The notes under the pieces: generated by a model
The model's database searches: none
What the model was told of the DNA's origin: nothing
Seen by the model: only the letters and a program-made list of their open reading frames with translations
Origin: Emticicia aquatilis
GTDB lineage: Bacteria > Bacteroidota > Bacteroidia > Cytophagales > Spirosomataceae
Assembly: GCF_014644295.1 (NCBI RefSeq)
Contig: NZ_BMKK01000016.1
Location: 1 to 64,000 of the forward strand
Direction: 5' to 3'
Length of the DNA stretch: 64,000 bases
Shown here: piece after piece, positions 4,918 through 29,281 of the stretch
Numbering within the stretch: the stretch's first letter is position 1
Layout: the number at the start of each line of letters is the position of its first letter
Program-made: the position numbers and the translations under genes

Positions 4918-4983
4918 CAAAGGTGGGGTTTCTTAGACACTAAAGTGTTACAAAATATTGTATATAAGTTACATGATTCACAC
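4918..4983 (-). promoter_or_regulatory. Shared island promoter, copy A (csbD operon)
   Basis: The 39-bp element at 4945-4983 reads, on the minus strand, GTGTGAAT-N2-TGTAAC-N15-TGTAACAC. It is followed after 19 bases by the -7 box CACCTTTG (4918-4925). Both TGTAAC half-sites are exact and 21 bp apart. Confidence 0.8.
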
Positions 4984-5020
4984 TTTTTGGTCAAATTCGA
5001 GCATTATTTGCAACGTTTGA

Positions 5021-5057
5021 TAAAAAATAGGGTTGAGAAATTTTCATCCTCAACCCT
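5021..5057 (-). terminator. Terminator of the ferritin-like operon
   Basis: AGGGTTGAG (5029-5037) pairs perfectly with CTCAACCCT (5049-5057). On the minus strand a T-rich tail (ATTTTTTAT) follows. It is placed just after the stop at 5071 and before promoter A, insulating the two units. Confidence 0.8.
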
Positions 5058-5070
5058 ACTTGTACTGTAT

Positions 5071-5865
5071 TTATACAATAAAAGGTCCGGCAATTGCCAA
5101 AACTGCTTCTTTGGTTAATGGCTCATCAAATGCTTCGCTGATAGCCTCATTTGTTTTTCCAGCTAAACCTCCTAAATTCACACCGCCTTGCACCAAATTA
5201 TCGTCACCCGCATAAACAGCAGCAGGGCTACCTTGTGCTAAGGTAATCCAACCTTTTGCCCCTACTACAAAACCTCTGGTATTGAGCAATCGACGCACGA
5301 CTGATGCGTGACGAGCCTCCACCGAATGAATCTGGAGAGCATATTCCAACAAAGGTTTATCTTCTGTGGCCATCAAATTAGCCGCTTGACCTTTATAGGC
5401 ACGTACACCTGTATCTTCTAAAGCGTGCGAAACAATAGCAAATGTTTTATAATTTGAAAATACATCGGCAAAAGCTCCTTTAGCTGTGAAATCAAAAGTA
5501 GGCTTGGCAACTGCACTTACACCTAATGCGGTTTTCAGAAAATTGACGTGCTGAGTTTCGTGCTTACTAATTTGAGTAAAAATTGCTTGGTCAGATGCAG
5601 GAATCAAACCAGTTGTTGAAATACCTTTTTTATAGAATTCATCTTCGAGGTATTCGAGGGTCAAAGCAAAGTTTAAAACCGCAATTGCACCAGGGGTGGC
5701 AGCATAGGCTTTATTGAGCATACTTGCCACAACGGTCGGAACTGCTACCGCAGCCAGCTTCTTACTGAAAGTATTAAATACACTTCGGCGTGATACATGC
5801 TCAAGTCTTTCAAATACTTCGCTATCTATTTTTTCTATGTCTGTTAATATCTTGAAAATATTCAT
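5071..5865 (-). CDS. Ferritin-like domain protein
   Basis: A 264-residue protein of the Ferritin_2 (PF13668) type. Candidate di-metal ligands are in the helices TLEYLEDEFYKKG (about 69-81), KHETQHVNFLK (about 102-112), ALEDTGVRAY (about 148-157) and HSVEARHASVVRRLL (about 180-194), giving the ExxH pattern twice. A hydrophobic stretch KLAAVAVPTVVASMLNKAYA at about 36-55 could be an export signal preceded by RR at 26-27, but it is not a clean Tat motif. It follows a second ferritin-like gene by 69 bases on the same strand. The substrate is unknown. Confidence 0.85.
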   Translation of the reverse strand: MNIFKILTDIEKIDSEVFERLEHVSRRSVFNTFSKKLAAVAVPTVVASMLNKAYAATPGAIAVLNFALTLEYLEDEFYKKGISTTGLIPASDQAIFTQISKHETQHVNFLKTALGVSAVAKPTFDFTAKGAFADVFSNYKTFAIVSHALEDTGVRAYKGQAANLMATEDKPLLEYALQIHSVEARHASVVRRLLNTRGFVVGAKGWITLAQGSPAAVYAGDDNLVQGGVNLGGLAGKTNEAISEAFDEPLTKEAVLAIAGPFIV

Positions 5866-5934
5866 GATAAATTGTTTTCTTTAAGTGTTTGAAAAATTGA
5901 AATAAGTTGCCTTATTTTTGATTGAATGCTTCAA

Positions 5935-6645
5935 TTAGCTTGTTGGAAGATTAGAGCCATTCAACTTTGTTGTCAAAAAAGGCTGCACTGCTGCCAAAAT
6001 ATCCGCTGGCTTTTTAGCGGCATCCAATCCATTAGTGTCAATAATATCATCTCCAGCAAAGGAGATTGATAACGGACTTAACAAATCACGAATTGCTGCT
6101 GCATGGCGAGCCTCTACCGAAACAATTTTACCTGCTAAAAGCAAATATCCGCCATCTTTTATTAGTTTACCCGCTCCATTATAAGCAGCAACACCCGTAT
6201 CTTCAAATACTTTGGCTGTTCCTAAAACACTGGCTCGGCTCGTAAAGTCAATGGCCGAAAAATTTACTTCCAAGGCTTGAATTGCATTGGTACCTAAAGC
6301 AACCTTAAAAAACTCTCGGTGGATGATTTCGTGGTCTCTGATATCGGTCAATAGCGACAACTCGGCAGTTGAAATACCTGAATAAGGAGTTGCGATGACT
6401 TGTGTATAAAAAGCAGCCTCTAATTGCTCAAGGGCATAGGCATAATTCAAAATACCTATATCGTTTGACCCTAAATTTACTCCAACAGCTACTTCGTCGT
6501 CTTTCTTACATCCAACTGCCAATAAGGCAAAACTCGCTGTGGTTGTCAGACCTACGTTGCGTAAAAAATTACGTCGATTCTTGAATGTTACTCCTTTGGC
6601 CATAGAACTTTTGGCTACCGCTGAATTTAGTTGTGATTTGTGCAT
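5935..6645 (-). CDS. Ferritin-like Tat lipoprotein
   Basis: A 236-residue protein. Residues 24-46 read RRNFLRNVGLTTTASFALLAVGC, a twin-arginine signal ending in a lipobox-like Cys46, so it is probably an envelope lipoprotein. The body has ferritin-like helices with candidate ligands in YALEQLEAAFY, RDHEIIHREFF, VFEDTGVAAY and VSVEARHAAAIRDLL. It is similar in order and motifs to the next gene (5071-5865), so the two are probable paralogs. No copy of the shared island promoter is visible upstream; 6646-6780 is AT-rich and otherwise featureless. Confidence 0.85.
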   Translation of the reverse strand: MHKSQLNSAVAKSSMAKGVTFKNRRNFLRNVGLTTTASFALLAVGCKKDDEVAVGVNLGSNDIGILNYAYALEQLEAAFYTQVIATPYSGISTAELSLLTDIRDHEIIHREFFKVALGTNAIQALEVNFSAIDFTSRASVLGTAKVFEDTGVAAYNGAGKLIKDGGYLLLAGKIVSVEARHAAAIRDLLSPLSISFAGDDIIDTNGLDAAKKPADILAAVQPFLTTKLNGSNLPTS

Positions 6646-6780
6646 AACAAAAAGTTGGTTTAAATGATAAATTAAATATTTGCATAAATATTTAATATTT
6701 ACTTAGGTATTAAAATTGATTGGTATATTTTTGGGGTATTATAAATTCAAAATTGGAAAACTAATTATTAAGCATTGATT

Positions 6781-7179
6781 TTAAGGTTTGTCAATTCCTT
6801 TACTCTTAGTTTCATGGCCAAAAAGATTCTTAAAAGCCACTTCACCCATTGCTTTTATCTTACTTGAATTACTTACTACGAGCGTTGTAACCGCAATTTG
6901 AAAAAGAGTTCCTGCTATTTTTTTAAAGGGATTATGTGAATTTCCTACCAAAAGTTTTTTTGATACGTATCCAGTAGCAATGCCTGCAATTCCATCTACT
7001 ACACTATCCTTCAAATCAGGTTGAGAGATAAATTCTTGTAATGAATTTTTCAAGAAATTGATTGGTCGCAGGCTTTCATAGGTGGTGTGGACTTGCTCTT
7101 TTAGAATAGTCATTTCTCGACATTGACGGTCTTCTAAGAAAGTTATTCTTTCTTTCAAAAGTACAGAATGGTCGGTCAT
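6781..7179 (-). CDS. Hypothetical protein coupled to a holin-like gene
   Basis: A 132-residue protein I do not recognise. Residues 1-30 are charged and helical (ITFLEDRQCREMTILKEQ). Residues 50-85 contain SVVDGIAGIATGYVSKKLLVG and residues 88-110 a moderately hydrophobic segment (IAGTLFQIAVTTLVVSNSS), so it may be peripheral to or embedded in the membrane. It overlaps the upstream holin-like gene by four bases (ATGA), indicating translational coupling and a shared role. Confidence 0.7.
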   Translation of the reverse strand: MTDHSVLLKERITFLEDRQCREMTILKEQVHTTYESLRPINFLKNSLQEFISQPDLKDSVVDGIAGIATGYVSKKLLVGNSHNPFKKIAGTLFQIAVTTLVVSNSSKIKAMGEVAFKNLFGHETKSKGIDKP

Positions 7180-7529
7180 GAGGTTGATTGTTTGAGCATT
7201 TGGGTAATAATAAAATTACTGATTGGTATTTTTACCCATTGATTTAAGTAAGAACGAAGCAAGACCGAAAGCAAAGCATAACAAGCTGCTACAATGAAGA
7301 AACCATAGTACGATTTGCCCAGCAAATCGCCAATCCACAATGCAACACCTACATTAAAGATGACAATGATTAATAAAATAGTTATGAATAATACTATTTT
7401 AACAGCAAAAGATGAAACAATATCAGCCGATTTATCAATGGCTTTCAGTTTCATCAATTCAATGGTTGTAGTACCGCAGTCTTCTGCTTTCTCAAAAAGC
7501 ATTTCTACGGGCGTTTCATAGTTTTTCAT
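7176..7529 (-). CDS. Phage-holin-like membrane protein
   Basis: A 117-residue protein with two membrane segments (about 43-70 and 75-95) after a helical cytoplasmic start (VEMLFEKAEDCGTTTIELMKLKAIDKSADIVS split over residues 8-39). The layout matches the holin-X/Phage_holin_3_6 type (PF07332) membrane proteins common in Bacteroidota stress operons, where no phage lysis role is implied. It is coupled to 6781-7179 by an ATGA overlap and lies downstream of the YtxH gene. Confidence 0.75.
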   Translation of the reverse strand: MKNYETPVEMLFEKAEDCGTTTIELMKLKAIDKSADIVSSFAVKIVLFITILLIIVIFNVGVALWIGDLLGKSYYGFFIVAACYALLSVLLRSYLNQWVKIPISNFIITQMLKQSTS

Positions 7530-7608
7530 GCTTGAAAGGAGTTTGAATGACTCATGACACAGAAACCTATGCCATGAGTAGCATATCTATATTGCCTTGC
7601 TTTTGTGT

Positions 7609-7923
7609 TTAATCTTTGATTATTCCATCAAACTTTGCTTTGTCTTTGGCAACTAATTCATTAACTTCCAACATGGCATTTTCATACTTAGATTTTCCTT
7701 TTGCCACAATGTTTTCTACATCATGCACTGTACTTTGGTACTTTTTGTTCAACGAATCTACAAATTCTTCAAAAGTATCTTTTAGGCCGTCGGCGTAGCC
7801 TTCGCCTTTATCCATAATTTTCTTTCTGGTTCTTGACCCTTTTTCGGGGGCAAACAAAATACCAACCAAAGCACCCGCTGCAACACCCGCCAGTATGCCT
7901 AATAAAACTTTTCCTGATTTCAT
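7609..7923 (-). CDS. YtxH domain stress protein
   Basis: A 104-residue protein beginning MKSGKVLLGILAGVAAGALVG, one glycine-zipper-like membrane segment, immediately followed by the YtxH signature ILFAPEKGSRTRKKI (about 22-36). The rest is an amphipathic charged helix. YtxH proteins are small membrane-anchored proteins linked to general stress; their mechanism is not known. It lies 20 bases after the lmo0937-type gene, within the unit that starts at promoter B. Confidence 0.9.
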   Translation of the reverse strand: MKSGKVLLGILAGVAAGALVGILFAPEKGSRTRKKIMDKGEGYADGLKDTFEEFVDSLNKKYQSTVHDVENIVAKGKSKYENAMLEVNELVAKDKAKFDGIIKD

Positions 7924-7943
7924 TTTTTTATTTCTTTGAATGA

Positions 7944-8102
7944 TTATTTAATGATTTTATTGCCCTGTATCACTCTCAAAAGGATTGTGATTACTGCAAT
8001 TACAAGCAAAACATGAATGATTCCGCCAACACCATAAGCAAAGAAACCAATTGCCCACGAAATGACTAAAACCACTGCGACGATATAAAGAAGATTGCCC
8101 AT
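7944..8102 (-). CDS. lmo0937 family small membrane protein
   Basis: A 52-residue protein starting MGNLLYIVAVVLVISWAIGF and containing two membrane segments split by FAYGVGGIIH, with the short basic tail RVIQGNKIIK. This pattern fits the lmo0937/DUF5670 family of tiny stress-associated membrane proteins. It sits between the lipoprotein gene and ytxH. Confidence 0.85.
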   Translation of the reverse strand: MGNLLYIVAVVLVISWAIGFFAYGVGGIIHVLLVIAVITILLRVIQGNKIIK

Positions 8103-8175
8103 TGTATGTGTGTGTTTATATAAAGTTGTATGTCTTTAGTAGCTAATTATCAGATGTTAAAATGATAATGTATCT

Positions 8176-8631
8176 TTATTGCCTGTAAAACTTATCGGTT
8201 TCTAATATCATCTGGTTGCCGGGATATTGAATATTTGCATCGTCTTCGGCCGTTATGAATATTTTTACTGGTCGGAAAGAAGAAACTGTCTCGAAAGATG
8301 CTTTTAGCTGCTTCGACATCATGCTCGTTCCGCTCTTAATCTGACCAATGTTTTTTGTAACGTCTTGGTCGGTCAGCATCCAAACTACATAAGTTTGTCT
8401 GGCAGGTTGCAGTCTTTGTACCTCTGCTAACTCAGTCAGGTGAATTTCGATGACATTGTTTTTGTTTTTATCAGTCTTAATATCAACGTAGCCACGTGCA
8501 GCAGGTACTGCTTGTGAATTAAGAAAAGCGATTCGTTTTGAACAAGCCGAAAACGAAAATGCTACTATCAGCGTCAGAACACCCAATAGGATATTTTTTA
8601 ATTGTTTGGACTTAGTTATTAAATTTTTCAT
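8176..8631 (-). CDS. Lipoprotein of unknown function
   Basis: A 151-residue protein starting at ATG 8631, with a lipoprotein signal (LLGVLTLIVAFSFSACSK, Cys at about 30). The mature part has regular beta-strand-like segments (GYVDIKTD, VIEIHLTEL, TYVVWMLTD, PVKIFITAED), suggesting a small beta-sandwich. I do not recognise the family. The frame is also open to 8667, but that would overlap the small peptide gene at 8654-8740; the later start aligns with the signal peptide. Confidence 0.75.
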   Translation of the reverse strand: MKNLITKSKQLKNILLGVLTLIVAFSFSACSKRIAFLNSQAVPAARGYVDIKTDKNKNNVIEIHLTELAEVQRLQPARQTYVVWMLTDQDVTKNIGQIKSGTSMMSKQLKASFETVSSFRPVKIFITAEDDANIQYPGNQMILETDKFYRQ

Positions 8632-8653
8632 GGTATTGTTTTTTAAAGTGTGT

Positions 8654-8740
8654 CTATGAACAAGCATTCAAAATGACAATGATTACGAAAACACACAGAA
8701 GGAAAATATTATCATAGTGTTCTGTTAATATGGATTTCAT
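8654..8740 (-). CDS. 28-residue lipopeptide (entericidin-like) behind promoter B
   Basis: An ATG-to-TAG frame of 28 codons: a short polar start (MKSILTEHYDN), a hydrophobic stretch (IFLLCVFVIIVI) and a terminal LNACS that looks like a lipobox with only one residue after the Cys. The ATG is 21 bases below the -7 box of promoter B, matching the 21-58 base leaders of the other seven copies, while the next gene would have an unusually long leader of 130 bases. I infer a real tiny lipoprotein; no homologue is known to me. Confidence 0.45.
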   Translation of the reverse strand: MKSILTEHYDNIFLLCVFVIIVILNACS

Positions 8741-8761
8741 ATTGTATCTTGGTTTACTATA

Positions 8762-8827
8762 CAAAGGTGCGAGATTAGATTTCAGAATGTGTTATACAAT
8801 ATTTGATAATATTTGTAAGATTCACAC
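8762..8827 (-). promoter_or_regulatory. Shared island promoter, copy B (lipopeptide-lipoprotein-ytxH unit)
   Basis: The 39-bp element is at 8789-8827 (minus strand GTGTGAAT at one end, TATAACAC at the other), then 19 bases, then CACCTTTG at 8762-8769. The inner half-site is weak (TACAAA). Confidence 0.75.
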
Positions 8828-8857
8828 ATTTGTCATGGTGATTGGTCATTTAAAGAA

Positions 8858-11230
8858 TTATACTAAATGACTTTGGCGATTGAATTTCAGATATAGTTTT
8901 TCGGGGTTTTCTAATTTCTGATTGCTCCTCGAAGCTTTTTCGAGGGTTAGCCGAGCCATTAAATAACTTACCGTTGATTCTGCTCCTTGATTGAGGTTGA
9001 TATAGCTTTCTTCTAAGCCATCATAACAACCGCCCGTACATGGATTATAGATAATTTGGTGCAAATGATTATTGCCCAAAAACCAATCAAAAGCAATTTT
9101 GCTTTTATTTTTATAGCTTTCGTCTTTAAAAACTGCATAAAACTTATTCAAAGCCAAAATTGTGTATGTAATATCGATAGGTTGTTCACCGCCAATTTTT
9201 ACTCGGTTTTCTTCTTCGCCTTTGTGCAACCATCCTTGATTCGAGATAACTTTGATGCTTTTTTCGGTGAAAATTTTTGATAACAGAAAATCAAACGAAG
9301 TTTTGGCAGTTTGCTTATAAATTGGCTCGCCCGTTGCCAGCCAAGCACAAAGCATTGCTTCGGGCAAAATGCTGTTTCCGTAGGTCAGATAGCTTTCAAA
9401 CCACGACCATTCAGGCTCGGCTTCGTGCTTATACATCTGCACTAAACGATTGCTCAGGCGAGTTATCAAGAGCATATCTTGCACCGAATGCTGCACACTA
9501 CTTCTATAATACAAACCCTTGATTATAAAGGCCATTGCTCTTGTAGAATGAATTTCGAGCAGATTTGCCAAAGTACTATCAATGGTCTTACCAGCTTCAA
9601 AAACCATCTCTTGGGGCAATGATTCACTCAATGAAATCAAATATCCTAAAGCCCAAATGGCTCTGCCATTCGAGTCGGCGAGGTTGTTTTCGTAATTTTG
9701 TTGGGTAAAAACTCCGTCTTTATCTACGTAATTCAAGAAACTTCCATCTTCTTGCAAACAATATCTGATAAAATTGAGGTAAATCTCAATGTACTTTAGG
9801 TCTTCGGCCTCTTGTGTTAGCTCATAATGTTGGCACATGGCTACCAATGCCCGAGCGTTATCGTCAAGTGTATAACCCGAACCAATATCTGGTTGATTAA
9901 TGATTGAAAACTGAATCATGCCAAAGTGGGTTGTCAGTTTTTTTACATAGTCAAGATTAATGGCTGGTATTTTATAATTCAAATGAATTTCTCCTTCGCT
10001 GATGTTTTCAAACAAAAGAGCGTGGGCAATGGCGGCATTTTCCCATGCGGTGTGTGCCATGCTGTGCAAGCCATTTGAGCTAATTTCTTTTAGTAAGGCT
10101 TCGTCGCCCAGTAAATTAATAACCGCCGCCGATAATTGACCCGAATTTTTGAAATCAACGATTATTCCCGCACCGTTTTTCAAGACCTCACGGGCGTGAG
10201 GAATGGGCGTAGAAATAATCGGACAGCCGCAACTAATGGCATAAGAAAATGTACCACTCACGGCCTGATTGGGGTCTTTTGAGGTAAACAAATAAATATC
10301 GGTCAGTTGCAGATAATCGAGCAAATCAGATAACGTAAGATAGTGATTAATGAACCTTACGTAATTCTGTAATTGCAGGCTTTCGACCTTGTTTTCAAGG
10401 AAATTACGGTATTTTTCACCTTCTTCTTTCGCTACCGAAGGATGTGTTTTTCCGATAATTAGAAACAATACATCATCATTGTCTTTGATAATTTCGGTCA
10501 TGGCCTCTAAAGTAGTTTCGATACTTTTCCCCGAACTTAGCAAGCCGAATGTTGAAAGCACTCGACGACCCGAAACATTATATTTTGCTTTCAAAAAATC
10601 TTTGTCAGAATGTGGTACTAAGTGCGTTCCATGCGGAATGATAGTGATTTTATCATCGGTTACTTCGTAATCGGTGGTCAGAATTCCCGCTGAAATATGG
10701 GTCATTACGATAACCGATTCGCATAAGTTTACGATATTTTTAACCGACGTTTTTAATGCCTCATTAGGTCTTGGCAAAACCGTATGAAAGGCAATAACGG
10801 CAGGCTTATTGAGTAATTTCAAGAAATGCTCGAAATAAAAGGCTTTTTTTAGCAATCCAAATTCGTGCTGAATCATTACCATCTTAATGTTATCATCATT
10901 ATTAATGGATTTTGCAAGTTTTATAAAATCCTCTGATACATCAGCATTCAGGACATACTTTATCGGTTCTTGATAAATATGTTTTTCGCTGTCAGATTCT
11001 AAAGGACAAATACTGATTTTGAACGAATAACTAAACTTGTTTTTGAGTGCTTTGATTAAATCTTGCGAGTAGGTGGCTATACCACACTCACGAGGAGGGA
11101 ATGAAGTAATGAATAAAATTTCGGGTAGTGAATTGGCACTATCCAACTTATGCGTGTTGTTTCCCGCACTAAATTTTTGCCAGCCCAAAGGCAATACATT
11201 GATACGACCAAGTGTGTTTTCATTGTTCAT
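8858..11230 (-). CDS. Glycosyltransferase family 4 fused to an alpha/alpha-toroid domain
   Basis: A 790-residue two-domain protein. Residues about 35-410 form a GT-B glycosyltransferase: SFPPRECGIATYSQDL near the N-terminus, IPHGTHLVPHSDKDF, GLLSSGKSIETTLEA, and the donor-binding region NQAVSGTFSYAISCGCPII. Residues about 430-770 are a helical repeat with GYTLDDNARALVAM, LADSNGRAIWALGY and GGCYDGLEESYINLNQGAESTVSYL, resembling (alpha/alpha)6 glycosidase barrels. It overlaps the GH130 gene by four bases. The pair probably makes or turns over a mannose-type oligosaccharide; the product is not known. The fusion looks intact. Confidence 0.85.
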   Translation of the reverse strand: MNNENTLGRINVLPLGWQKFSAGNNTHKLDSANSLPEILFITSFPPRECGIATYSQDLIKALKNKFSYSFKISICPLESDSEKHIYQEPIKYVLNADVSEDFIKLAKSINNDDNIKMVMIQHEFGLLKKAFYFEHFLKLLNKPAVIAFHTVLPRPNEALKTSVKNIVNLCESVIVMTHISAGILTTDYEVTDDKITIIPHGTHLVPHSDKDFLKAKYNVSGRRVLSTFGLLSSGKSIETTLEAMTEIIKDNDDVLFLIIGKTHPSVAKEEGEKYRNFLENKVESLQLQNYVRFINHYLTLSDLLDYLQLTDIYLFTSKDPNQAVSGTFSYAISCGCPIISTPIPHAREVLKNGAGIIVDFKNSGQLSAAVINLLGDEALLKEISSNGLHSMAHTAWENAAIAHALLFENISEGEIHLNYKIPAINLDYVKKLTTHFGMIQFSIINQPDIGSGYTLDDNARALVAMCQHYELTQEAEDLKYIEIYLNFIRYCLQEDGSFLNYVDKDGVFTQQNYENNLADSNGRAIWALGYLISLSESLPQEMVFEAGKTIDSTLANLLEIHSTRAMAFIIKGLYYRSSVQHSVQDMLLITRLSNRLVQMYKHEAEPEWSWFESYLTYGNSILPEAMLCAWLATGEPIYKQTAKTSFDFLLSKIFTEKSIKVISNQGWLHKGEEENRVKIGGEQPIDITYTILALNKFYAVFKDESYKNKSKIAFDWFLGNNHLHQIIYNPCTGGCYDGLEESYINLNQGAESTVSYLMARLTLEKASRSNQKLENPEKLYLKFNRQSHLV

Positions 11231-12465: not shown

Positions 12466-12792
12466 TTACATTTTTGCACATTCAATGGCACATTTTCGGC
12501 AGGCCTCCGAGCAGATTTTGCATTGCTCCATATAATCGTATTTGTCACATTCTTCGGCACAAATGGTACAGACTTCAACGCAAAGCTTGCATATTTGCTT
12601 GACCAACTCACTATCCGATGCCATTGACTGCATGGCCAAAATACAGACAGCGGCACAATCATGGTCTAATTTTATAGACCGTGCCATCATTTCGATGTCG
12701 TCTTCTTTTAAGTCTTCGGTTGAGGCATCTTTGCAGGCCACTATACAATCGGCACAAGCATCAATGCAGGCTTGATATTTTTGAGGTATCAT
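12466..12792 (-). CDS. Four-helix-bundle copper-binding protein (Csp-like)
   Basis: A 108-residue protein with 16 cysteines arranged as CxxxC and CxxC steps along four helices (Cys 9, 13, 16, 20, 46, 50, 68, 71, 75, 78, 82, 91, 94, 98, 101 and 105). This is the pattern of DUF326/Csp copper-storage proteins, which bind many Cu(I) ions inside the bundle. It has no signal peptide, so it is the cytosolic type. It is the first gene behind promoter C, with 32 bases from the -7 box, and leads an operon that continues to GH130 and the glycosyltransferase. Confidence 0.92.
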   Translation of the reverse strand: MIPQKYQACIDACADCIVACKDASTEDLKEDDIEMMARSIKLDHDCAAVCILAMQSMASDSELVKQICKLCVEVCTICAEECDKYDYMEQCKICSEACRKCAIECAKM

Positions 12793-12824: not shown

Positions 12825-12890
12825 TAAAGGTGTGAGAGTTTACGCAGAAAAGTGTTACATAATTTTTCTGGAAACTTGCATAATTCACAC
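12825..12890 (-). promoter_or_regulatory. Shared island promoter, copy C (csp-GH130 operon)
   Basis: The 39-bp element is at 12852-12890 (GTGTGAAT distal, TGCAAG inner, TGTAACAC proximal on the minus strand), then 19 bases, then CACCTTTA at 12825-12832. Confidence 0.8.
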
Positions 12891-16436: not shown

Positions 16437-17093
16437 TTAATTAAAATTTACAATCAGCTCGTTATCAACCGACGTTACGCCAGGAGCATTCCAAGCGATT
16501 CGAGCAGCTTCATCTCTTTGGTAGTATGAGTCAACCGAACCATTTAAGGTTACATTATTGCCCAAAACTTTTACTTCAATATCTTGTTCGCAAATTGACC
16601 AGTTGCGTGTGAAAGCATCTTGAATATCTTTCTTTTCGATAGCATCGTGGGTTTCGGCACTTAGCCTGATGTCGTTGGTTACACCTAACACTCCAGCCAG
16701 TTGTTTCACAACTTTTTTTGTCGCTTCACGTTGGTAGTTCCATTGGACTTCTCCGTCGAGACGTACCCATCCATTTTCAACTTTCACGACAATATCTTCA
16801 TTCGGAATTTCCCAATTCAATTTCAAAGCATTCAGAATTTCGGTGGCTATATCAGCGTCATCTTTTTTCCATGTACTGCTAAATTTTATCTCTATTTTTT
16901 CGACTAAAGCCTTTAAACCTGATACTTTCTTGGCAGCTTCTTCGGCCTCCGACTTCTTGGCATAACTATCAACCGTTCCAGTGAGTGTCACAACACCATC
17001 AATAGCAGTAACGCCAATTTCGGCTGCGTGCAAAAGCGGTTCCCATTTTATGGCATTCTGAACATCTCTTTGTAAGTCTTCGTTACTCTTCAT
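16437..17093 (-). CDS. Triple BON domain protein
   Basis: A 218-residue protein made of three BON repeats (about 1-70, 75-145 and 148-218). Each contains the signature of a beta strand, Gly-Val and Asp-Ser-Tyr: VVTLTGTVDSYAKKSEAE, WVRLDGEVQWNYQREATKK, NVTLNGSVDSYYQRDEAAR. BON domains bind phospholipid or peptidoglycan-associated surfaces, usually in the periplasm, yet no signal peptide is seen here. It is the first gene behind promoter D. Confidence 0.93.
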   Translation of the reverse strand: MKSNEDLQRDVQNAIKWEPLLHAAEIGVTAIDGVVTLTGTVDSYAKKSEAEEAAKKVSGLKALVEKIEIKFSSTWKKDDADIATEILNALKLNWEIPNEDIVVKVENGWVRLDGEVQWNYQREATKKVVKQLAGVLGVTNDIRLSAETHDAIEKKDIQDAFTRNWSICEQDIEVKVLGNNVTLNGSVDSYYQRDEAARIAWNAPGVTSVDNELIVNFN

Positions 17094-17134: not shown

Positions 17135-17200
17135 TAAAGGTCAGAAGCTTTGGTCAGGAAAGTGTTACATAACTTTTAGAAAAAGTTACAACATTCACAC
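17135..17200 (-). promoter_or_regulatory. Shared island promoter, copy D (BON-YceI-SDR unit)
   Basis: The 39-bp element is at 17162-17200, minus strand GTGTGAAT, TGTAAC and TGTAACAC all exact, then 19 bases, then GACCTTTA at 17135-17142. The best match to the consensus together with copy A. Confidence 0.82.
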
Positions 17201-17326: not shown

Positions 17327-18205
17327 TTAACTCTCAGGAACAATTACTTGTAGAGCATTGGGAGCAATAATGGCATTGACTTCTTTTACTTTACCGAGAT
17401 ATTCTCCGTCTATCTGAAAATGGACTTTTTTGCGGGATTTCATGGATAAAGTATCAGTTTGAAAGATTTCGGTTTTGTCGGTATCGTGCGAACCATACGC
17501 AAAAGTCATTTTGAAGATTTCATAAAATGATTTTTTCTTAATCACGATTACTTCAAACAATTTATCCTCTAAGTTACCGATCGGGTTAATCACAACGCCA
17601 TTGCCATATTTGGTAGCATTGGCAATTACAATCATTTCAGCATTCATTTTAATGCTTTTATTGTCAATTTTTATGGTAATTTCCATCAAAGGGTTTTGCC
17701 ATAGCACTTTCAGCGATGCCAACAGATAACCCCACCAACCACGCATTGGTTGGTTTTCAAACTCCTTGATGGCGTAGGCGTTAAGCCCAATATCGCTCAA
17801 ATGGACGCATAATTGGTCGTTAATTTGAGTAACGTGGATTTTTTTTGAATAGCCTTGCGTAAGTATATCGAGTGCTTGTGTTGGAATGTCGCTAATTCCG
17901 AGTTCCTTTGCGAGTCCGTTGGCAGAGCCTGCGGGCAAAATTCCCATAAGGATTTTTGTTTTCATCAAACATTCAGCAACTAATTTTATTGTACCGTCGC
18001 CACCAACTGCAACCACACAATTAGGCGAAAATGCCTTGATTTGTTCTTTTATTGTTGAAATATTGCAGGTTTTGGTCAGATGATAAAAATCTACAGTGTG
18101 GTTGGTTGCAGCAAAATAATTGGTAATTTCGGAAGCCCAGTCGATAGAATTACTGCCCGAAGCAGCGTTAATTACAAAGAGTAGTTTCAAGTTATCGTGT
18201 GTCAT
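17327..18205 (-). CDS. Diacylglycerol kinase family lipid kinase
   Basis: A 292-residue protein of the DAGK/YegS/BmrU type, which phosphorylates diacylglycerol or a related lipid to the phosphatidate form. It shows VINAASGSNS at 11-20, the ATP-site loop GGDGT at 68-72, and PAGSANGLAKELG at 91-103. The Met at 18205 directly precedes the first strand and no nearer Met exists. Its start is one base from the divergent APP1-type gene, so each promoter must lie inside the other's coding region, or both must be read from further away. Confidence 0.9.
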   Translation of the reverse strand: MTHDNLKLLFVINAASGSNSIDWASEITNYFAATNHTVDFYHLTKTCNISTIKEQIKAFSPNCVVAVGGDGTIKLVAECLMKTKILMGILPAGSANGLAKELGISDIPTQALDILTQGYSKKIHVTQINDQLCVHLSDIGLNAYAIKEFENQPMRGWWGYLLASLKVLWQNPLMEITIKIDNKSIKMNAEMIVIANATKYGNGVVINPIGNLEDKLFEVIVIKKKSFYEIFKMTFAYGSHDTDKTEIFQTDTLSMKSRKKVHFQIDGEYLGKVKEVNAIIAPNALQVIVPES

Positions 18206-18206
18206 A

Positions 18207-19196
18207 ATGAAAAATAAAGTTGAGAATCGTGTTGCTACCGTGAAAGTCTATCATGGCTACGGACACCAAAATAATTTGGTGGTTTATGGCCATGTTTTGG
18301 CTGGAAAATCGGATACCTCAAGTAAATTTAACAATAATCTGCTCAGTAATATCATACATTTAATCAAATTGTTTTTGGTGAAGCCTATACCGAAGGTTAA
18401 AGTAAGTTTACAATGGCAAAAACAAAGATTCGATACTATTACGGAAACCGATGGTTTCTTCAAGTTCGAATGGAAATCAGATACCCAGATTGAAGCGGGT
18501 TGGCATCCTGTAATAGTACATTTGGCTAAATATCAAGGCTTTGTCTCGACATTCGGAGAAGGAAAACTTTTTGTTCCGCACGCTACCCAATATGGTTTTA
18601 TATCTGATATTGACGATACGGTGCTGGTTTCTCACTCTGCTAATACTGGCAAAAAACTGCGGGTGATGTTTACTAAAAATCCACGTAGTCGCAAGACATT
18701 TGCCGATGTGGTTAAATTTTATAAGCTGCTCTCACTCGCCCACACAAGTTCCTATTTGCTCAATCCGTTCTTTTATGTTTCCAGTAGTGAATGGAATTTA
18801 TACGATGATTTGAATGAGTTTTTTAAGCATAATGGCTTGCCGAAAGGAGCTTTTTTGCTGAATAATATCAAAAAATGGTATGAATTATTAAAAACAGGCA
18901 AGACAAAACATGAAGGAAAACTAATTAGAGTGACAAGAATTTTGAAAGCGTTTCCGAAACAACGCTTTATTTTATTGGGCGATAACTCACAAAGCGACCC
19001 TCAGATTTACACCTCAATAGCCAACAAATACCCCGAGCAAATTGTGGCGATTTATATCAGAAATATAAGTTTGGAGAAAGAGAATATAACAACCGAAACA
19101 CTTGATTCAATTCAAAATAAAGCTATTAAAACCTGTCAATTTAAGCATACTGACGAAGCAATTTTACATGCCAAAGACATTGGATTAATTACTTGA
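18207..19196 (+). CDS. APP1-type phosphatidate phosphatase (DUF2183)
   Basis: A 329-residue protein. The N-terminal beta domain starts VKVYHGYGHQNNLVVYGHVL (about 12-31). The catalytic HAD-like motif DIDDT lies at 134-138 (GFISDIDDTVLVS), giving the DxDxT signature of phosphatidate phosphatases, and LLGDNSQSDPQIY later supplies the second acidic cluster. Yeast APP1 converts phosphatidate to diacylglycerol; for bacterial members this is an inference. It is the reverse of the reaction of the divergent neighbour. The frame is open upstream to 18120 but the Met at 18207 fits the domain edge. Confidence 0.85.
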   Translation: MKNKVENRVATVKVYHGYGHQNNLVVYGHVLAGKSDTSSKFNNNLLSNIIHLIKLFLVKPIPKVKVSLQWQKQRFDTITETDGFFKFEWKSDTQIEAGWHPVIVHLAKYQGFVSTFGEGKLFVPHATQYGFISDIDDTVLVSHSANTGKKLRVMFTKNPRSRKTFADVVKFYKLLSLAHTSSYLLNPFFYVSSSEWNLYDDLNEFFKHNGLPKGAFLLNNIKKWYELLKTGKTKHEGKLIRVTRILKAFPKQRFILLGDNSQSDPQIYTSIANKYPEQIVAIYIRNISLEKENITTETLDSIQNKAIKTCQFKHTDEAILHAKDIGLIT

Positions 19197-20281: not shown

Positions 20282-20347
20282 CAAAGTTCTACACTATTGG
20301 AAATCAAAGTGTTACATAATTTTAGAAATAACTTACAAAGTTCACAC
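20282..20347 (-). promoter_or_regulatory. Shared island promoter, copy E
   Basis: The 39-bp element is at 20309-20347 (minus strand GTGTGAAC, TGTAAG, TGTAACAC), then 19 bases, then GAACTTTG at 20282-20289. The element touches the 3' end of the AI-2E transporter gene. Confidence 0.78.
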
Positions 20348-23358: not shown

Positions 23359-23424
23359 CAAAGTTAAGCTTCTGCTGGTTGTAATGTGTTATATAATTGT
23401 TGGTATGAGTTACAAGATTCACAC
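23359..23424 (-). promoter_or_regulatory. Shared island promoter, copy F
   Basis: The 39-bp element is at 23386-23424 (GTGTGAAT, TGTAAC, TATAACAC on the minus strand), then 19 bases, then TAACTTTG at 23359-23366, the only copy with a perfect TAnnTTTG -7 box. Confidence 0.82.
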
Positions 23425-24505: not shown

Positions 24506-24561
24506 GAAATCTCACCACTAAAACTAAAATCTACCTACCTATTAAATACTTAAATGTTATG

Positions 24562-24873
24562 TTAAAGCAAAAGTATGAGCAACAAAACGATGATAATAAT
24601 GGCACCAACCGATAGATAAACTCCACCATTGATTGATGCAAGATTGGTCTTGAGGGTGCGTACTTCTTTGCGTAATTGCCTCTTTTCTTGGAAACTAAGT
24701 TTGCTTTTATCCATCGCCTTGATTTCTTCTAAGCGACTCAACAAAATCTTAGATTCGGCCAGTTCGGTTTTGGGTGTTTTGTCTTTTGCCAGAGCATTTT
24801 CGGCACTTAATTGTGCAGGAATAAATGATAACATAAACGAAAACGTGAGTGTGTAAATTAGGTGCTTGTACAT
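24562..24873 (-). CDS. Exported protein with C-terminal membrane anchor
   Basis: A 103-residue protein. Residues 1-24 are a signal peptide (YTLTFSFMLSFIPAQLSA), residues 25-75 a charged, helical coiled-coil region (KILLSRLEEIKAMDKSK, QEKRQLRKEVRTLKTNL), and the last 20 residues a pure Ile/Leu/Val membrane segment. So the coiled coil is probably periplasmic and tethered at the C-terminus. The function is unknown. The start at ATG 24873 matches the signal peptide; the frame is open to 24927 but that extension has no export character. It is the only gene between promoter G and the terminator. Confidence 0.72.
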   Translation of the reverse strand: MYKHLIYTLTFSFMLSFIPAQLSAENALAKDKTPKTELAESKILLSRLEEIKAMDKSKLSFQEKRQLRKEVRTLKTNLASINGGVYLSVGAIIIIVLLLILLL

Positions 24874-24931
24874 TTTAATTGAGTTTATAGGCCGCAGTTG
24901 GCGGAACAATTGTGGAATGATTTCCACTAAG

Positions 24932-24997
24932 CAAAGGTGATTATCTTTTGGGTAAAATGTGTTATATAATTGTTAGTAAAAGTTATATAATTCACAC
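24932..24997 (-). promoter_or_regulatory. Shared island promoter, copy G (overlaps an AraC-type gene end)
   Basis: The 39-bp element is at 24959-24997 (GTGTGAAT, TATAAC, TATAACAC on the minus strand), then 19 bases, then CACCTTTG at 24932-24939. The first bases of the element are also the last codon and stop of the AraC-type gene (24992-25552). Confidence 0.8.
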
Positions 24998-25552
24998 ATC
25001 ATCAAGGGGATTCCGTTTTTTATCTTTGAGCGATTTGAAGAACGATGGCGTTAGGCCAGTTACTTTTTTGAACTGATTGGAGAGGTGAGAAATACTACTG
25101 TAATGCAATTTGGCCGCAATTTCGGTCAGATTGAGTTCGTCGTAGATAATTAGCTCTTTTACCCGCTCAATCTTATGGTTCATGATATAATGCTCAATCG
25201 TGATGCCTTCGGTTTCGGAGAAAAGATTAGCCAAATAGGTGTAATCGTAGTGAAGTTTTTCTCTTAAATAATCCGAAAAATTTACCTTCGGAATATCATC
25301 GGTATAATGCACCATTTCTACGATTACATTCTTTATTTTTTCTATTAGCATTGATTTCTTATCGTCCATGAGTTCAAGTCCCGATTTATGTAATGCTTCT
25401 TTTAGTTCGTCGTGCTGTAATTGTGTGAGATTTTCCATGATTTCTACCTCGCCCAATGATATATTCATATAATGTAGGCCAAGATTATTCAGTTCTTCTT
25501 TCACTACCATCTTACATCGCAAACTGACCATGTATTTTATATATAGTTTCAT
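24992..25552 (-). CDS. AraC family regulator with degenerate metal-type N-terminus (AraC1)
   Basis: A 186-residue protein. Residues 1-45 are an HMA-like beta-alpha-beta piece (MKLYIKYMVSLRCKMVVKEEL); relatives I recall have CxRC where this has S10-x-R-C13, so a two-Cys metal site is lost. The AraC DNA-binding domain is at about 90-178, with YDYTYLANLFSETEGITIEHYI as the first helix-turn-helix and LTEIAAKLHYSSISHLSNQFKKVTGLTPSFFK as the second. A strong candidate to bind the shared element, whose half-sites are 21 bp apart. It is the last gene of the regulator operon and a paralog of 28227-28787. Confidence 0.88.
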   Translation of the reverse strand: MKLYIKYMVSLRCKMVVKEELNNLGLHYMNISLGEVEIMENLTQLQHDELKEALHKSGLELMDDKKSMLIEKIKNVIVEMVHYTDDIPKVNFSDYLREKLHYDYTYLANLFSETEGITIEHYIMNHKIERVKELIIYDELNLTEIAAKLHYSSISHLSNQFKKVTGLTPSFFKSLKDKKRNPLDDV

Positions 25553-25591
25553 GTGTTTTCATGTTAATATGCGTGCCTTTCCGGCACAAAC

Positions 25592-26029
25592 TCACATTCT
25601 ATCCATGTACCAATTGAGTTCTTTTTCCATTTTTTGGTAATGAAAAATCGTATCAATTAGCTTTTGTAAACGCATGAAGGCGGTTTCGCTCTTCACCACA
25701 TAATCAAAAGCTTTATGGTACATACAATTAACGGCTACTTCAATTTTATCTTGTGATGAAAGTATCACAACTGGCATTTTCGGGTATAAAGCCTTTATCT
25801 GAATCAGCGTTTCGAGGCCATTCATGGCATTTTTGTTGATTCCATCGAGGTGATAATCCAAAATAATTATATCTGGACTATTAGATAAATGTTCAACACA
25901 TTGCTCGCCTGTATGATAGGTTTCGATATCAAAATCAGCATTTTGTAGAAACTCAATTTCTAATGATTTCAGAAAAACCGCATCATCATCTACCAAAAAT
26001 AGCTTTACTTTATTGTCATGATTTGTCAT
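25592..26029 (-). CDS. Single-domain response regulator
   Basis: A 145-residue receiver domain with no output domain. Acid pocket DDD at 14-16, phosphoacceptor Asp58 (DIIILDYHL), conserved Ser/Thr region VVILSSQ at 87-93, and Lys113 (YVVKSE). The tail is a short helix (QKMEKELNWYMDRM). It is coupled by ATGA to the hybrid kinase, so it probably receives phosphate from the Hpt domain of that kinase and passes it on, or acts as a sink. Confidence 0.92.
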   Translation of the reverse strand: MTNHDNKVKLFLVDDDAVFLKSLEIEFLQNADFDIETYHTGEQCVEHLSNSPDIIILDYHLDGINKNAMNGLETLIQIKALYPKMPVVILSSQDKIEVAVNCMYHKAFDYVVKSETAFMRLQKLIDTIFHYQKMEKELNWYMDRM

Positions 26030-28173
26030 TTATTGGTTCTTATCTTTAAAAGTTCTTCTTCTAATTCTTGGCAAGCCTGCACACAAACATTTTCGAGTTT
26101 ATCTACCATCTCAGCAATACTCTCGTTTTGTTCTTGAATATTGGCATACTCTTGTATCTTTTTTGCCATTAGCTCAAAATCGGTACTGATACCCATAATC
26201 GAAAACGAGGGTATCATTTTATGAACCGAAGCGTGAAGCAGCGTCCAGTCTTTGTTTAGAAAACTTTGCTTCATTGACATGATGAGCGGCGGGGTTTGTT
26301 CGAGATAGAGTGAAATCATTTCTGACATTAACTTCGGATTTGATTTTGTACGATGACTCAAATATTTCAAATCAATACATCGTATCTTTTTCATTTCTTC
26401 GGCTATTTCTTTTTGGTTTACTTTCATCGAACTTTTAACCAAACTGACTATTTTGCTATAAAGTAGCCTTTCGTCGAGTGGTTTGGCTACATAATCATTC
26501 ATACCGACGGCTTTGCATTTGGCCAAATCTACCGTTGTCACATCGGCTGTAAGTGCAATAATTGGAGTAGTTGAGTGCATAGTGTTGCGTATGTACTCGG
26601 TTGCTTCAAAACCATTCATTTCGGGCATTTGTAAATCCATCAGAATTATATCATACGATTTTTGCTTTAATTTTTCGATGGCAATTTTGCCATTGGCCGT
26701 AATGTCACACTCAAAACCGAAGTCATCGAGCAAAGTTTTCATCAATAATTGATTCAAAGCCATGTCTTCAACAACCAAAACTTTTATATTTTTGGCTTCA
26801 TCATCAAATTCCATAATTTCGTTGATAGTTTCTGCCTCGGCTTTTGTTTTCTTGAAACTCAGCGTAAAACTAAAAGTTGAGCCTTCATCTACTTTGCTCT
26901 TCACGTGCGTGCTTCCACCTTGCTTTTCAACCAGTTGTTTCACAATTGCCAAACCAAGGCCAGTTCCGCCATAAAGTCGAGCAGTACCGCTGGTTGCTTG
27001 CTGAAAATTATCAAATATATTGTCGATTTTGCTTTCTGAAATACCGATACCAGTGTCGGCCACCGAAAACTCAATATTTACACTTTCTTTATCTTCGCTA
27101 CTTATACAAACATTCACAGTAATTGAGCCTCTGGTAGTAAATTTTACTGCGTTACTTACTAAATTCAAGATAATTTGGTGCAAACGAACTGGGTCACCGA
27201 CCAAGACATCGGGTATTTTTTTGTCGTATTCAATGAGTAATTTGAGGTTTTTTTCTTGAATTTTAGTCTCAAACAAGTGCAACATTGCCGAAATAGAAGA
27301 GGCCATTTTGAACGGTATTTCTTCAAAAGTCATTTTGCCAGCATCTACTTTGGCCAAATCGAGAATATCATTGATAAGCACAATGAGGGCATTGCCACTC
27401 ATTTTTATGGCCGTCAAATATTCTCGTTGTTTGACCGAAAGGTCAGTTTTTAGTAGAACTTTCGTAAACCCGATGATGGCATTCATGGGTGTCCGAATCT
27501 CATGACTCATGTTAGATAAAAACTGCTGTTTGGCTTTTACGGCTTCTTCGGCAATTCGTCGAGTAACTTCGGCTTTACTCTGAGCTTCTTCGGCAATGGC
27601 GGTTGCCAGTTCGGCAAAAATTCGTGCTTCGGTTAGCTCTTTTTCAATTCTTTTGTGTTCGGTTATATCTCTTGCCACCACCACAACTCCCAAAACATTC
27701 CCTTGTTCATCGTTATAAACGGAGCCATTAAACAAGACATCGGTAAGTTTATGGTCACTAATCGTGAGTGGAAAGTCCGACACAAAACCTTTGGCAAAAA
27801 TTTCTTGATAACCAGCTCTGGCTTTTTCGGGTTCGGTAAAATAATCGAAAAAGTCAGTACCGATAAGTTTCTCTCTCGAAAGACCTGTGATATTTACCGA
27901 AGCGTTATTCAAATCCGTAATTTTTCCTTCTGGGCTAATCGTAAATAAGGGGTCGAGACTCGCTTCAATCAAGATTCTGGCATAATTAGCAATCCTCAAC
28001 TCTGTCACTCGTTTTTCTTTTTCGATATTCTGAAAAACCAATTCTTTGTTGGCAATGATTAGTTCGGCGGCTCGTTTTTCCTTCTCTTCAAGCTGAAAAG
28101 CCAACTCCTTATTGGCGATTGCCAGTTCTTTATTTGCAATGATTAACTCCTCTGATTTGCTTGTTTTTAACAT
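26026..28173 (-). CDS. Soluble hybrid histidine kinase with PAS, receiver and Hpt
   Basis: A 715-residue protein with no membrane segment. Residues 1-65 are heptad-like repeats (ANKELAxxNKELAF); about 66-175 a PAS domain (ILIEASLDPLFTISPEGKITDLN); His224 is in FLSNMSHEIRTPMNAI; N box about 335-345, VADTGIGIS at 371-379, GGTGLGLAI at 402-410; receiver at about 464-580 with Asp513 in LMDLQM; Hpt at about 600-710 with His651 in ASVHKMIPS. A full intramolecular phosphorelay sensing a cytosolic signal. It lies between the two AraC-type genes. Confidence 0.95.
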   Translation of the reverse strand: MLKTSKSEELIIANKELAIANKELAFQLEEKEKRAAELIIANKELVFQNIEKEKRVTELRIANYARILIEASLDPLFTISPEGKITDLNNASVNITGLSREKLIGTDFFDYFTEPEKARAGYQEIFAKGFVSDFPLTISDHKLTDVLFNGSVYNDEQGNVLGVVVVARDITEHKRIEKELTEARIFAELATAIAEEAQSKAEVTRRIAEEAVKAKQQFLSNMSHEIRTPMNAIIGFTKVLLKTDLSVKQREYLTAIKMSGNALIVLINDILDLAKVDAGKMTFEEIPFKMASSISAMLHLFETKIQEKNLKLLIEYDKKIPDVLVGDPVRLHQIILNLVSNAVKFTTRGSITVNVCISSEDKESVNIEFSVADTGIGISESKIDNIFDNFQQATSGTARLYGGTGLGLAIVKQLVEKQGGSTHVKSKVDEGSTFSFTLSFKKTKAEAETINEIMEFDDEAKNIKVLVVEDMALNQLLMKTLLDDFGFECDITANGKIAIEKLKQKSYDIILMDLQMPEMNGFEATEYIRNTMHSTTPIIALTADVTTVDLAKCKAVGMNDYVAKPLDERLLYSKIVSLVKSSMKVNQKEIAEEMKKIRCIDLKYLSHRTKSNPKLMSEMISLYLEQTPPLIMSMKQSFLNKDWTLLHASVHKMIPSFSIMGISTDFELMAKKIQEYANIQEQNESIAEMVDKLENVCVQACQELEEELLKIRTNK

Positions 28174-28226
28174 ATTTTTGATGAGTTAATACTGTAAATT
28201 ATCATATAACTCGGAGTAGTGGATGA

Positions 28227-28787
28227 TTATAACTCTTCGATTGGAATCCTTCTTTTCTCTTTTAACTGTTTAAAATGTGTGGGTGTAAGGCCCGTTGCTT
28301 TTTTAAATTGGCTCGACAAATGAGCTACACTACTGTAATTCATATTGTTGGCAATTTCGGTGATGTTCATTTCGCCATAGACAATCAACTCTTTGATGCG
28401 TTCTACTTTGTGGGAAATGATATATTGCTCGATGGTAGTTCCCTGAACTTCGGAGAAAAGATTGGCCAGATAAGTGTAGTCGTAGTCGAGTTTTTTACTG
28501 ATGAAGTCCGAAAAATTAGTTTTGGGTAATTCTTCGGCATAATGCACCATCTCGATAATTACTTTCTTAATTTTCTCAATCAGCATGGCCTTTTTATCGT
28601 CCATGAGTTCGAGGCCAGCACTAAGAAGCATTTTTCTTAGCGATTTTGTTTGTTCTTCCGAAAGCACCTCCATTATATCAACTACACCCAAATCGACCAC
28701 TATAAAGTGTAATCCAAGCTTTCGTAGAGCCTCTTTCACCATCATCTTGCAACGGGTACTCACCATGTATTTGATGTATAGTTTCAT
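28227..28787 (-). CDS. AraC family regulator, paralog (AraC2)
   Basis: A 186-residue protein, identical in length and very similar to AraC1 (24992-25552): MKLYIKYMVSTRCKMMVKEAL start with the same Ser-x-Arg-Cys, ELMDDKKAMLIEKIK in the linker, and helix-turn-helix blocks YDYTYLANLFSEVQGTTIEQYI and ITEIANNMNYSSVAHLSSQFKKATGLTPTHFK. The duplication flanks the kinase and receiver genes. The N-terminal domain may be a sensor or dimer interface; ligand unknown. It follows the cupin gene by 56 bases. Confidence 0.88.
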   Translation of the reverse strand: MKLYIKYMVSTRCKMMVKEALRKLGLHFIVVDLGVVDIMEVLSEEQTKSLRKMLLSAGLELMDDKKAMLIEKIKKVIIEMVHYAEELPKTNFSDFISKKLDYDYTYLANLFSEVQGTTIEQYIISHKVERIKELIVYGEMNITEIANNMNYSSVAHLSSQFKKATGLTPTHFKQLKEKRRIPIEEL

Positions 28788-28843
28788 GCTTTATTAATAA
28801 ATTTTGAAACTGCTATCTTTTGAGGTAGCCGTCTGAAAGGCAA

Positions 28844-29188
28844 TTAGTCTTCGTAACCGCTCTTAATGACCGTCGAAATCATCTTGAATTGTTCGTTGGC
28901 ATTAAAAATATGCGAAGCATGAGCGGGAATAATAATACCTTCGCCTTTGGCAAGCCTAAAGACCTTCCCGTTGATAGTTACTTCGGCTTTTCCGTCAATA
29001 ATCTGAACATAATTATCGAAAGGGGAAATTTTCTCAGCCAATTCTTCACCTGCATCAAAAGACGAAGCCGTGATATTGCCAGTTATTTTGCGAATAATGG
29101 TTTTACTGACCACTGCATTGGGCAAATATTCAATGATTTCGACTATTATGTGTGCTTTTGATTTTTCTAACTCGGTAGCTGGCTCCAT
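28844..29188 (-). CDS. Cupin domain protein
   Basis: A 114-residue single-domain cupin. The core reads ISPFDNYVQIIDGKAEVTINGK (about 51-72) and LAKGEGIIIPAHASHIFNANEQFKMISTV (about 76-104), the two cupin motifs, with His at the second motif; the first lacks the usual HxH pair, so metal binding is uncertain. It is first behind promoter H, 28 bases from the -7 box, and precedes the AraC2-kinase-receiver-AraC1 genes. Confidence 0.88.
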   Translation of the reverse strand: MEPATELEKSKAHIIVEIIEYLPNAVVSKTIIRKITGNITASSFDAGEELAEKISPFDNYVQIIDGKAEVTINGKVFRLAKGEGIIIPAHASHIFNANEQFKMISTVIKSGYED

Positions 29189-29216
29189 TCTATTTTCAAT
29201 TAATTTACGTGTAGTG

Positions 29217-29281
29217 TAAAGGTGAGAATATTAAATTGATTAAACTTACATAATTGCATATATTTATTGCATAATTCACAC
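29217..29281 (-). promoter_or_regulatory. Shared island promoter, copy H (cupin-regulator operon)
   Basis: The element at 29243-29281 has GTGTGAAT distal, TGCAAT inner and TGTAAGTT proximal on the minus strand, then 18 bases, then CACCTTTA at 29217-29224. It is the most divergent copy and one base shorter, and it controls the regulators themselves. Confidence 0.65.

Follow-up and report, generated by a model that had tools for sequence, protein, structure and literature searches.

Activators of the AraC/XylS family that work in the class II mode (AraC, XylS, MelR type) bind half-sites about two helical turns apart, the proximal one lying over the -35 promoter element, and contact sigma region 4 / RNA polymerase. 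MarA, SoxS and Rob bind a single box of ~20 bp. General stress responses, a hallmark of which is induction by several stresses, are elsewhere directed by sigma-S, sigma-B or PhyR-EcfG; to our knowledge, Bacteroidota have neither sigma-S nor sigma-B, and the coordination of their stress genes is poorly known. Here, we describe a gene cluster of Emticicia aquatilis (Bacteroidota), located in the first 64,000 nucleotides of contig NZ_BMKK01000016.1 (this whole stretch is called the window), in which a 39-bp promoter element occurs eight times and which encodes two paralogous AraC-type regulators.

The element is very probably the operator of a small activator of the AraC/XylS type, represented by the two paralogs of the cluster, which drives a general-stress-type regulon by class II activation. 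We infer that this protein binds the element and activates transcription, that a sensing step controls it and that stress induces the regulon. The finding is larger than that claimed in the first-pass annotation of the window, since it comprises a phylum-wide operator together with a probable activator; as a mechanism, AraC-type class II activation is already known.

With the class II activators of the AraC/XylS family, the system shares the AraC-type DNA-binding domain and putative half-sites 21 bp apart, the proximal one over the -35/-33 position, where binding is predicted. It differs in that the regulator has 186 amino acids (aa) with an N-terminal domain like the heavy-metal-associated (HMA) domain, the promoter is of a Bacteroidota kind with a CACCTTTG -7 box, and one operator is common to the whole stress-type regulon. 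The fold of the DNA-binding domain and the stress-type regulon are also shared with MarA, SoxS and Rob, whereas here the operator would consist of two half-sites at a fixed distance, and the regulator carries an additional N-terminal domain. The gene families CsbD, Dps, OsmY/BON, Usp and YciE/DUF892 occur likewise in the responses governed by sigma-S, sigma-B or PhyR-EcfG; here, however, a putative activator and a housekeeping-type -7 box are found and no sigma factor. The first-pass annotation knew of no published description, and judging by titles and opening abstracts, none of the element or the regulator was found in the literature; the same applies to the HMA-like single-Cys domain, the shared operator and the stress-type regulon. 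The main text of PMC9723704 contains neither AraC nor TGTAA.

Element copies and promoter geometry

The element copies and their -7 boxes are located as follows:

4945..4983, minus strand: element copy 1, heads the CsbD / lipoprotein / outer membrane protein (OMP) unit
4918..4925, minus strand: -7 box CACCTTTG of copy 1
8789..8827, minus strand: element copy 2, before a 28-aa lipopeptide open reading frame (ORF), then a lipoprotein (8176-8667)
8762..8769, minus strand: -7 box of copy 2
12852..12890, minus strand: element copy 3, before a Csp1-like Cys-rich protein, then GH130 and a glycosyltransferase
12825..12832, minus strand: -7 box of copy 3
17162..17200, minus strand: element copy 4, before a BON-domain protein, then YceI, SDR and Usp
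17135..17142, minus strand: -7 box of copy 4
20309..20347, minus strand: element copy 5, before a Pro-rich protein
20282..20289, minus strand: -7 box of copy 5
23386..23424, minus strand: element copy 6, before a Thivi_2564 family protein (NCBIfam 2.9e-21), then a Dps-like ferritin (Ferritin 8e-28) and OmpA
23359..23366, minus strand: -7 box of copy 6
24959..24997, minus strand: element copy 7, overlaps the stop codon of an AraC-type gene; coiled-coil membrane protein (24562-24927) downstream
24932..24939, minus strand: -7 box of copy 7
29243..29281, minus strand: element copy 8, putative promoter of the regulator genes
29217..29224, minus strand: -7 box of copy 8 (gap 18)

Direct reading of the window confirmed all eight 39-bp copies at the left ends given by the first-pass annotation, all on the minus strand. 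As it had reported, GTGTGAAT is intact in seven of the eight copies (the one at 20309 has GTGTGAAC), T(G/A)TAACAC is intact in seven (the one at 29243 has TGTAAGTT), and the gap between the element and an nA..TTT(G/A) box is 19 bases in seven copies and 18 in one (29243). Other details needed to be loosened. TGTAAC is exact in only three of the eight distal half-sites; the nACCTTTG form of the box holds as far as ACC is present in six of the eight, but AAC stands in the copies at 20309 and 23386, and the final base is A and not G in three. The start codons do lie 21–58 bases below the box, provided that the 28-codon lipopeptide ORF (ATG at 8740) heads the 8789 unit, where the next, longer ORF begins 94 bases below the -7 box. 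This 28-codon ORF (8654-8740, minus strand), directly below copy 2, ends with a lipobox-like ...ILNACS and a stop codon and is a possible mini-lipopeptide.

A matrix built from the 46-bp element, with no -7 box in it, scores no sites but these eight above 8 bits within the 64-kb window; in a leave-one-out analysis every omitted copy still scores 21.6–48.9 bits. The whole-genome search proposed as a check of the first claim (6,747,492 bases) gave six matches to the 39-bp pattern with at most three mismatches, all in the cluster, and no match to the reversed pattern at the same limit. A broader model detects in the same genome the eight copies and four dispersed sites at E <0.02: C7:79140, C24:18177 and C2:226441 (E 1.1e-6 or better) and C4:173563 (E 0.0175). 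The element is not local: the matrix derived from the window alone yielded 82 non-redundant copies in relatives. The condition named as refuting, random occurrence in coding regions, does not apply, since only three of 68 elements lie inside an ATG-initiated ORF of at least 100 aa, while such ORFs make up 67% of the bases. The 20 loci of this comparison came from other genomes and were chosen by element matches, so that coding or non-coding position alone is tested. The reversed-pattern and reversed-matrix controls, together with the avoidance of coding sequence, exclude random occurrence.

The consensus over 90 non-redundant sites is AT-GTGTGAAT-n-A-TGTAAC ... AATTATGTAAC-AC. The 11-mer AATnATGTAAC is repeated at element positions 6–16 and 27–37, i.e., 21 bp apart; when TRTAAC was sought 12–33 bp below 256 distal half-sites, the spacing was exactly 21 bp in 136 of 141 pairings. 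From the start of GTGTGAAT to the start of TGTAAC there are 10 bp, one helical turn, which is the offset expected for the two helix-turn-helix (HTH) units of an AraC-type domain. The ends of the element form a partial inverted repeat (GTGT ... ACAC).

The proximal half-site presumably occupies the usual position of the -33 promoter element. Among the 82 copies outside the window, a -7 box A..TTT(G/A) stands at offset 19 or 20 in 74, and all other offsets up to 44 sum to 12. In the wider set (n=299), the box is at offset 20 in 227 elements, at 19 in 42 and at neither in 30. Its consensus is CACCTTTG. The base preceding A, which the search pattern left free while fixing A, TTT and the final G/A, is C in 60% of the boxes and T in 17% (n=227). 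The housekeeping sigma -7 consensus is given as TAnnTTTG in PMC9723704. The earlier suggestion that the element takes the place of the -33 box as an activator-type site is supported. The lack of a -33 element, a weak -7 box and a strict phase are together the trace expected of a class II activator.

The AraC-type regulators and their occurrence with the element

Between element copies 8 and 7, the gene order is cupin, AraC, PAS hybrid kinase, receiver, AraC:

28844..29188, minus strand: cupin protein, first gene below copy 8 (Pfam Cupin_2 5.6e-07)
28227..28787, minus strand: MVSxRC AraC-type regulator, paralog 1 (HTH_18 5.5e-16; 64% identical to paralog 2)
26026..28173, minus strand: PAS hybrid histidine kinase (profile match)
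25592..26029, minus strand: stand-alone receiver domain (Pfam Response_reg 2.4e-17)
24992..25552, minus strand: MVSxRC AraC-type regulator, paralog 2, the proposed activator (HTH_18 5.6e-16, HTH_AraC 7.6e-12; model pLDDT (predicted local distance difference test) 88.8; fold matches)

Both regulator paralogs are 186 aa in length, and the regulator of Emticicia aquatica CECT 8858, from the same genus, is 84% identical. The C-terminal AraC-type HTH domain that defines the AraC/XylS family is present. The best solved fold matches of the model are DNA-binding domains of the AraT, YesN, MarA, SoxS and AraC type, including MarA (1bl0, 1xs9), the SoxS activation complex (7w5w) and Rob (1d5y); isolated AraC/MarA/SoxS-type domains match with TMt 0.69–0.84. 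The N-terminal domain is predicted with high confidence as bab-bab (E2-6 H11-23 E28-32 E35-38 H44-56). A Pfam profile search gave no HMA match in the regulator proteins, and in place of the CxxC metal-binding motif of HMA domains they carry MVSxRC, in which Ser10 and Cys13 are invariant in 38 aligned regulator sequences; MVC instead of MVS is found in a few relatives (L213, L174, L142, L034). In the model, this domain resembles the HMA fold of copper chaperones, with the second metal-binding Cys retained but not the first, and it is therefore probably a modified sensor or dimerisation domain. In another genome of the genus, a regulator copy (G005:C46:14279-14872) is interrupted by stops, and the element is still present just below it.

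The best 80 loci fetched by the regulator protein alone (78 from Bacteroidota groups, one from Melioribacteraceae and one from an uncultured bacterium) contain 209 elements above 18 bits, 188 of them with the box, against one for the reversed matrix, and 68 of the 80 loci are positive. The second matrix used here (90 sites) had been trained on loci of relatives, and three training contigs recur among the 80 (L138, L158, L172); without them, 200 elements against one reversed remain, 180 with the box, in 65 of 77 loci. Some of these elements lie just upstream of the regulator start codon or across its stop codon.

Ten of the 58 relatives (own genome included) have an element with an E-value of at most 1e-4, and every one of them encodes a regulator with 68% identity or more. 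The reverse does not always hold, as G034 has a regulator with 68% identity and a best element of only 0.0025. Among 220 family genomes, 26 have an element at E 1e-4; in 23 of them, the regulator reaches E 1e-60 or better. In G078, one of the remaining three, the element immediately follows a weaker regulator gene; the assemblies of the other two, G115 and G146, are fragmented. Among 296 phylum genomes, a regulator match (E 1e-25) is present in 43 of 45 element-positive and 95 of 251 element-negative genomes, some of the regulator-negative ones possibly being false since at most 11 candidates per genome were scored; four doubtful genomes were rechecked for the regulator. The regulator E-values of the element-positive genomes are 1e-60 or better in 25, 1e-58 to 1e-41 in 15 and 1e-33 to 1e-27 in three. 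The model used, R2, was trained partly on sites from the 80 loci, and at least one contig of the phylum set, G456:C6, which equals L181 in length (176,045), may belong to these loci. Among the regulator genes listed, at least 44 of 123 elements are within 25 kb of one and at least 16 within 1 kb.

In the mechanism that we propose, each element would act as two half-sites sharing AATnATGTAAC, two helical turns (21 bp) apart, the distal one being preceded by an additional GTGTG box, one turn further 5'. The proximal half-site would cover the -33 position, with a constant distance to the weak -7 box below it (mostly CACCTTTG and not TAnnTTTG), and from there the activator would bring in the housekeeping RNA polymerase by class II activation. 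It would thereby drive its own genes and the CsbD, Dps, BON/OsmY-like, Usp, DUF892, OMP and ice-binding-like genes, a regulon of general-stress type that would extend through much of Bacteroidota. The PAS hybrid kinase may feed a signal into the system.

Operator types and alternative readings

The genome of E. aquatilis encodes two further paralogs, C2:231441 and C4:172996, which are 47–48% identical over nearly the full length. Paralogs in a copper context carry MVCxRC. One dispersed element, C4:173563, lies directly after such a copper-type gene, and C2:226441 is ~5 kb from another. In a tree made by a quick method, in which many branches are weak, 14 MVC sequences stand on one side and 107 MVS, four MVC and one other sequence on the opposite side. 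TGTGA is present in 47 of 61 elements beside MVS-type genes and in none of the six beside copper-type genes; the latter, all from the genus of the window, keep the TGTAA core and the -7 box. The C4-type paralog resembles the window regulators in having a TGTAA core element and the -7 spacing beside its gene, and it differs in the retained MVCxRC and in an element without TGTGA. Second only to co-occurrence, this coupling of protein type to operator type provides the strongest evidence for recognition of the element by the AraC-type protein.

Genes behind copper-type elements include those for a Cys-rich protein and an HMA/MauE protein. Behind the C2 element ~5 kb from the MVC-type regulator gene, a protein of 98 aa contains 24 Cys (L081:2111-2404, minus strand); the Csp1-like protein of the window sits behind an MVS-type element. 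In family relatives L269–L272, two regulator genes are found within ~2 kb together with variant elements such as TGTGATnnATGCAAC, possibly paralog-specific operators.

Several observations weigh against an AraC-type activator reading two direct half-sites. The whole matrix scores 4.58 as a palindrome over 45 columns and 3.67 as a 21-bp direct repeat over 25, so that the half-site reading is not unique. HMA-type matches to the N-terminus (the copper chaperones GolB, Atx1 and HAH1) are weak, with E 0.2–0.4. TGTGA is present in two of four elements beside other MVC genes, and flanking elements were found beside only 59 of 110 MVS-type and nine of 23 MVC-type genes. The Fisher value of the phylum comparison, 5e-14, overstates independence because the genomes are related. 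Only one full-length family member, an MVC-type protein with 38–39% identity, is encoded in each of G252 and G257, which have eight and seven elements (best E 3e-12 and 8e-12, respectively); in G430, with two elements (best 7e-12), neither the regulator protein nor the 38-sequence profile finds a match, and G472 has a regulator match only at 2.2e-24. In these four genomes, the reader of the element may be a distant paralog or some other protein; the strong elements of G252, G257 and G430 carry the -7 box (L246–L248, L255, L256, L260). Many genomes with a 60–70% identical regulator lack an element at E 1e-4. Of 20 such regulator loci, hand-chosen from 19 genomes, 18 have diverged elements (48 at 6 bits or more, 33 with the box, none for the reversed matrix), and two have none at this threshold.

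Alternatively, the AraC-type genes could be no more than targets, and the element could be recognised by another protein, either an unrelated factor or the output of the PAS hybrid kinase–receiver pair encoded between them. This reading can draw on the kinase (26026-28173) and receiver (25592-26029) genes below copy 8 and on the strong elements without a close AraC-type homolog in G252, G257 and G430. We consider it unlikely, given that Pfam finds only a receiver domain in 25592-26029, that the element accompanies the AraC-type gene in loci picked by that gene alone, and that its sequence shifts with the AraC paralog type. Less probable still is a role of the AraC-type protein in repression or in dual regulation: some regulators do block polymerase at the -33 position, which the element covers, but a sub-consensus -7 box at a strictly kept distance, with no -33 element, is consistent with activation, and a repressor would need no such phase.

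The promoter of an alternative sigma factor is a very improbable reading. The spacing is fixed, and the first base of the -7 box is mostly C and not T, but the box retains A..TTTG of the housekeeping consensus TAnnTTTG (PMC9723704), the upstream part of 39 bp with its 21-bp repeat far exceeds a -35 hexamer, and none of the six sigma motifs, as given in passages of PMC9723704 on the flavobacterial start-site map, describes the element. This candidate was rejected, the promoter not being unlike the housekeeping type. Eight copies within 25 kb in a single orientation could also suggest a recently spread repeat (REP/MITE-like; repetitive extragenic palindrome or miniature inverted-repeat transposable element) or recent duplications. 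Conservation is, however, limited to the half-site columns, the spacer and flanks differ, homologous genes in other families have diverged elements at the same -7 spacing, and only three of 68 elements lie in coding sequence; this candidate was rejected on these grounds, and we give it practically no weight.

A further-reaching proposal can be formulated, tentatively and with some doubt that it holds as a whole. The MVSxRC HMA-AraC protein might act as master regulator of the general stress response in much of Bacteroidota, taking the role of sigma-S or sigma-B and controlling ice-binding-like (DUF3494) proteins. It might have evolved from a copper-responsive AraC by the loss of one metal-binding Cys, perhaps giving a single-thiol or metal-free sensor, and by the gain of the GTGTG box in its operator.

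Genes behind the element

Further first genes below the copies are assigned by profile:

4693..4881, minus strand: CsbD-like protein (Pfam CsbD 3e-15)
12466..12792, minus strand: Cys-rich protein, Csp1-like (TIGR04401 2.3e-10, 40.9 bits, below the curated cut-off of 100; Pfam DUF326 4.5e-05)
16437..17093, minus strand: BON-domain protein with three stretches (Pfam BON 4e-46)

Most minus-strand genes of the window between 29.2 and 3.5 kb can be grouped into eight units, the limits of which are putative: (1) CsbD, lipoprotein and OMP; (2) lipopeptide, lipoprotein, YtxH and ferritin-like genes; (3) Csp1-like, GH130 and glycosyltransferase; (4) BON, YceI, SDR and Usp; (5) Pro-rich; (6) Thivi_2564, Dps-like and OmpA; (7) coiled coil; (8) cupin and regulators. 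A YegS-like gene (17327-18205) fits no unit clearly. Beside this lipid kinase gene, on the opposite strand, a long APP1-type phosphatase gene (18120-19196, plus strand) lies within the minus-strand cluster. In other genomes, homologs of inner unit genes (Dps, OMP, GH130, Usp) have elements of their own.

Downstream genes were assigned by a simple ORF rule, after elements without a box had been dropped (31 of 300 in the first set and seven of 68 in the second); 251 of 269 and 56 of 61 could be assigned, some probably being spurious small ORFs. The largest clusters among the 251 genes are ice-binding-like secreted proteins (30 in 22 loci) and the regulator itself (30 in 28), the share of the latter being biased by the choice of loci. 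The ice-binding-like cluster comes from L102, L106 and L142–L215, and 28 of its 30 members match PF11999 (DUF3494); the names of the other clusters come from representatives, namely CsbD 22, cupin 15, coiled coil 14, BON 10, lipoprotein 9, OmpA/TSP3 9 and Thivi_2564 7. In the second set, taken from element-chosen loci and assigned by Pfam, the 56 genes include OMP_b-brl 8, CsbD 6, ferritin/Dps 5, ice-binding-like 4, OmpA 4, DUF892 3 and Usp 2. The stress regulon proposed earlier stands as one regulon with stress-type genes behind the element, but the word stress is taken from the names of gene families.

A defined operator, a probable activator and a readable geometry make this regulon predictable in many genomes and directly testable. 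The system also provides promoters with a built-in activator site, and it ties orphan families (Thivi_2564, DUF5670, DUF892 and ice-binding-like proteins) to one circuit.

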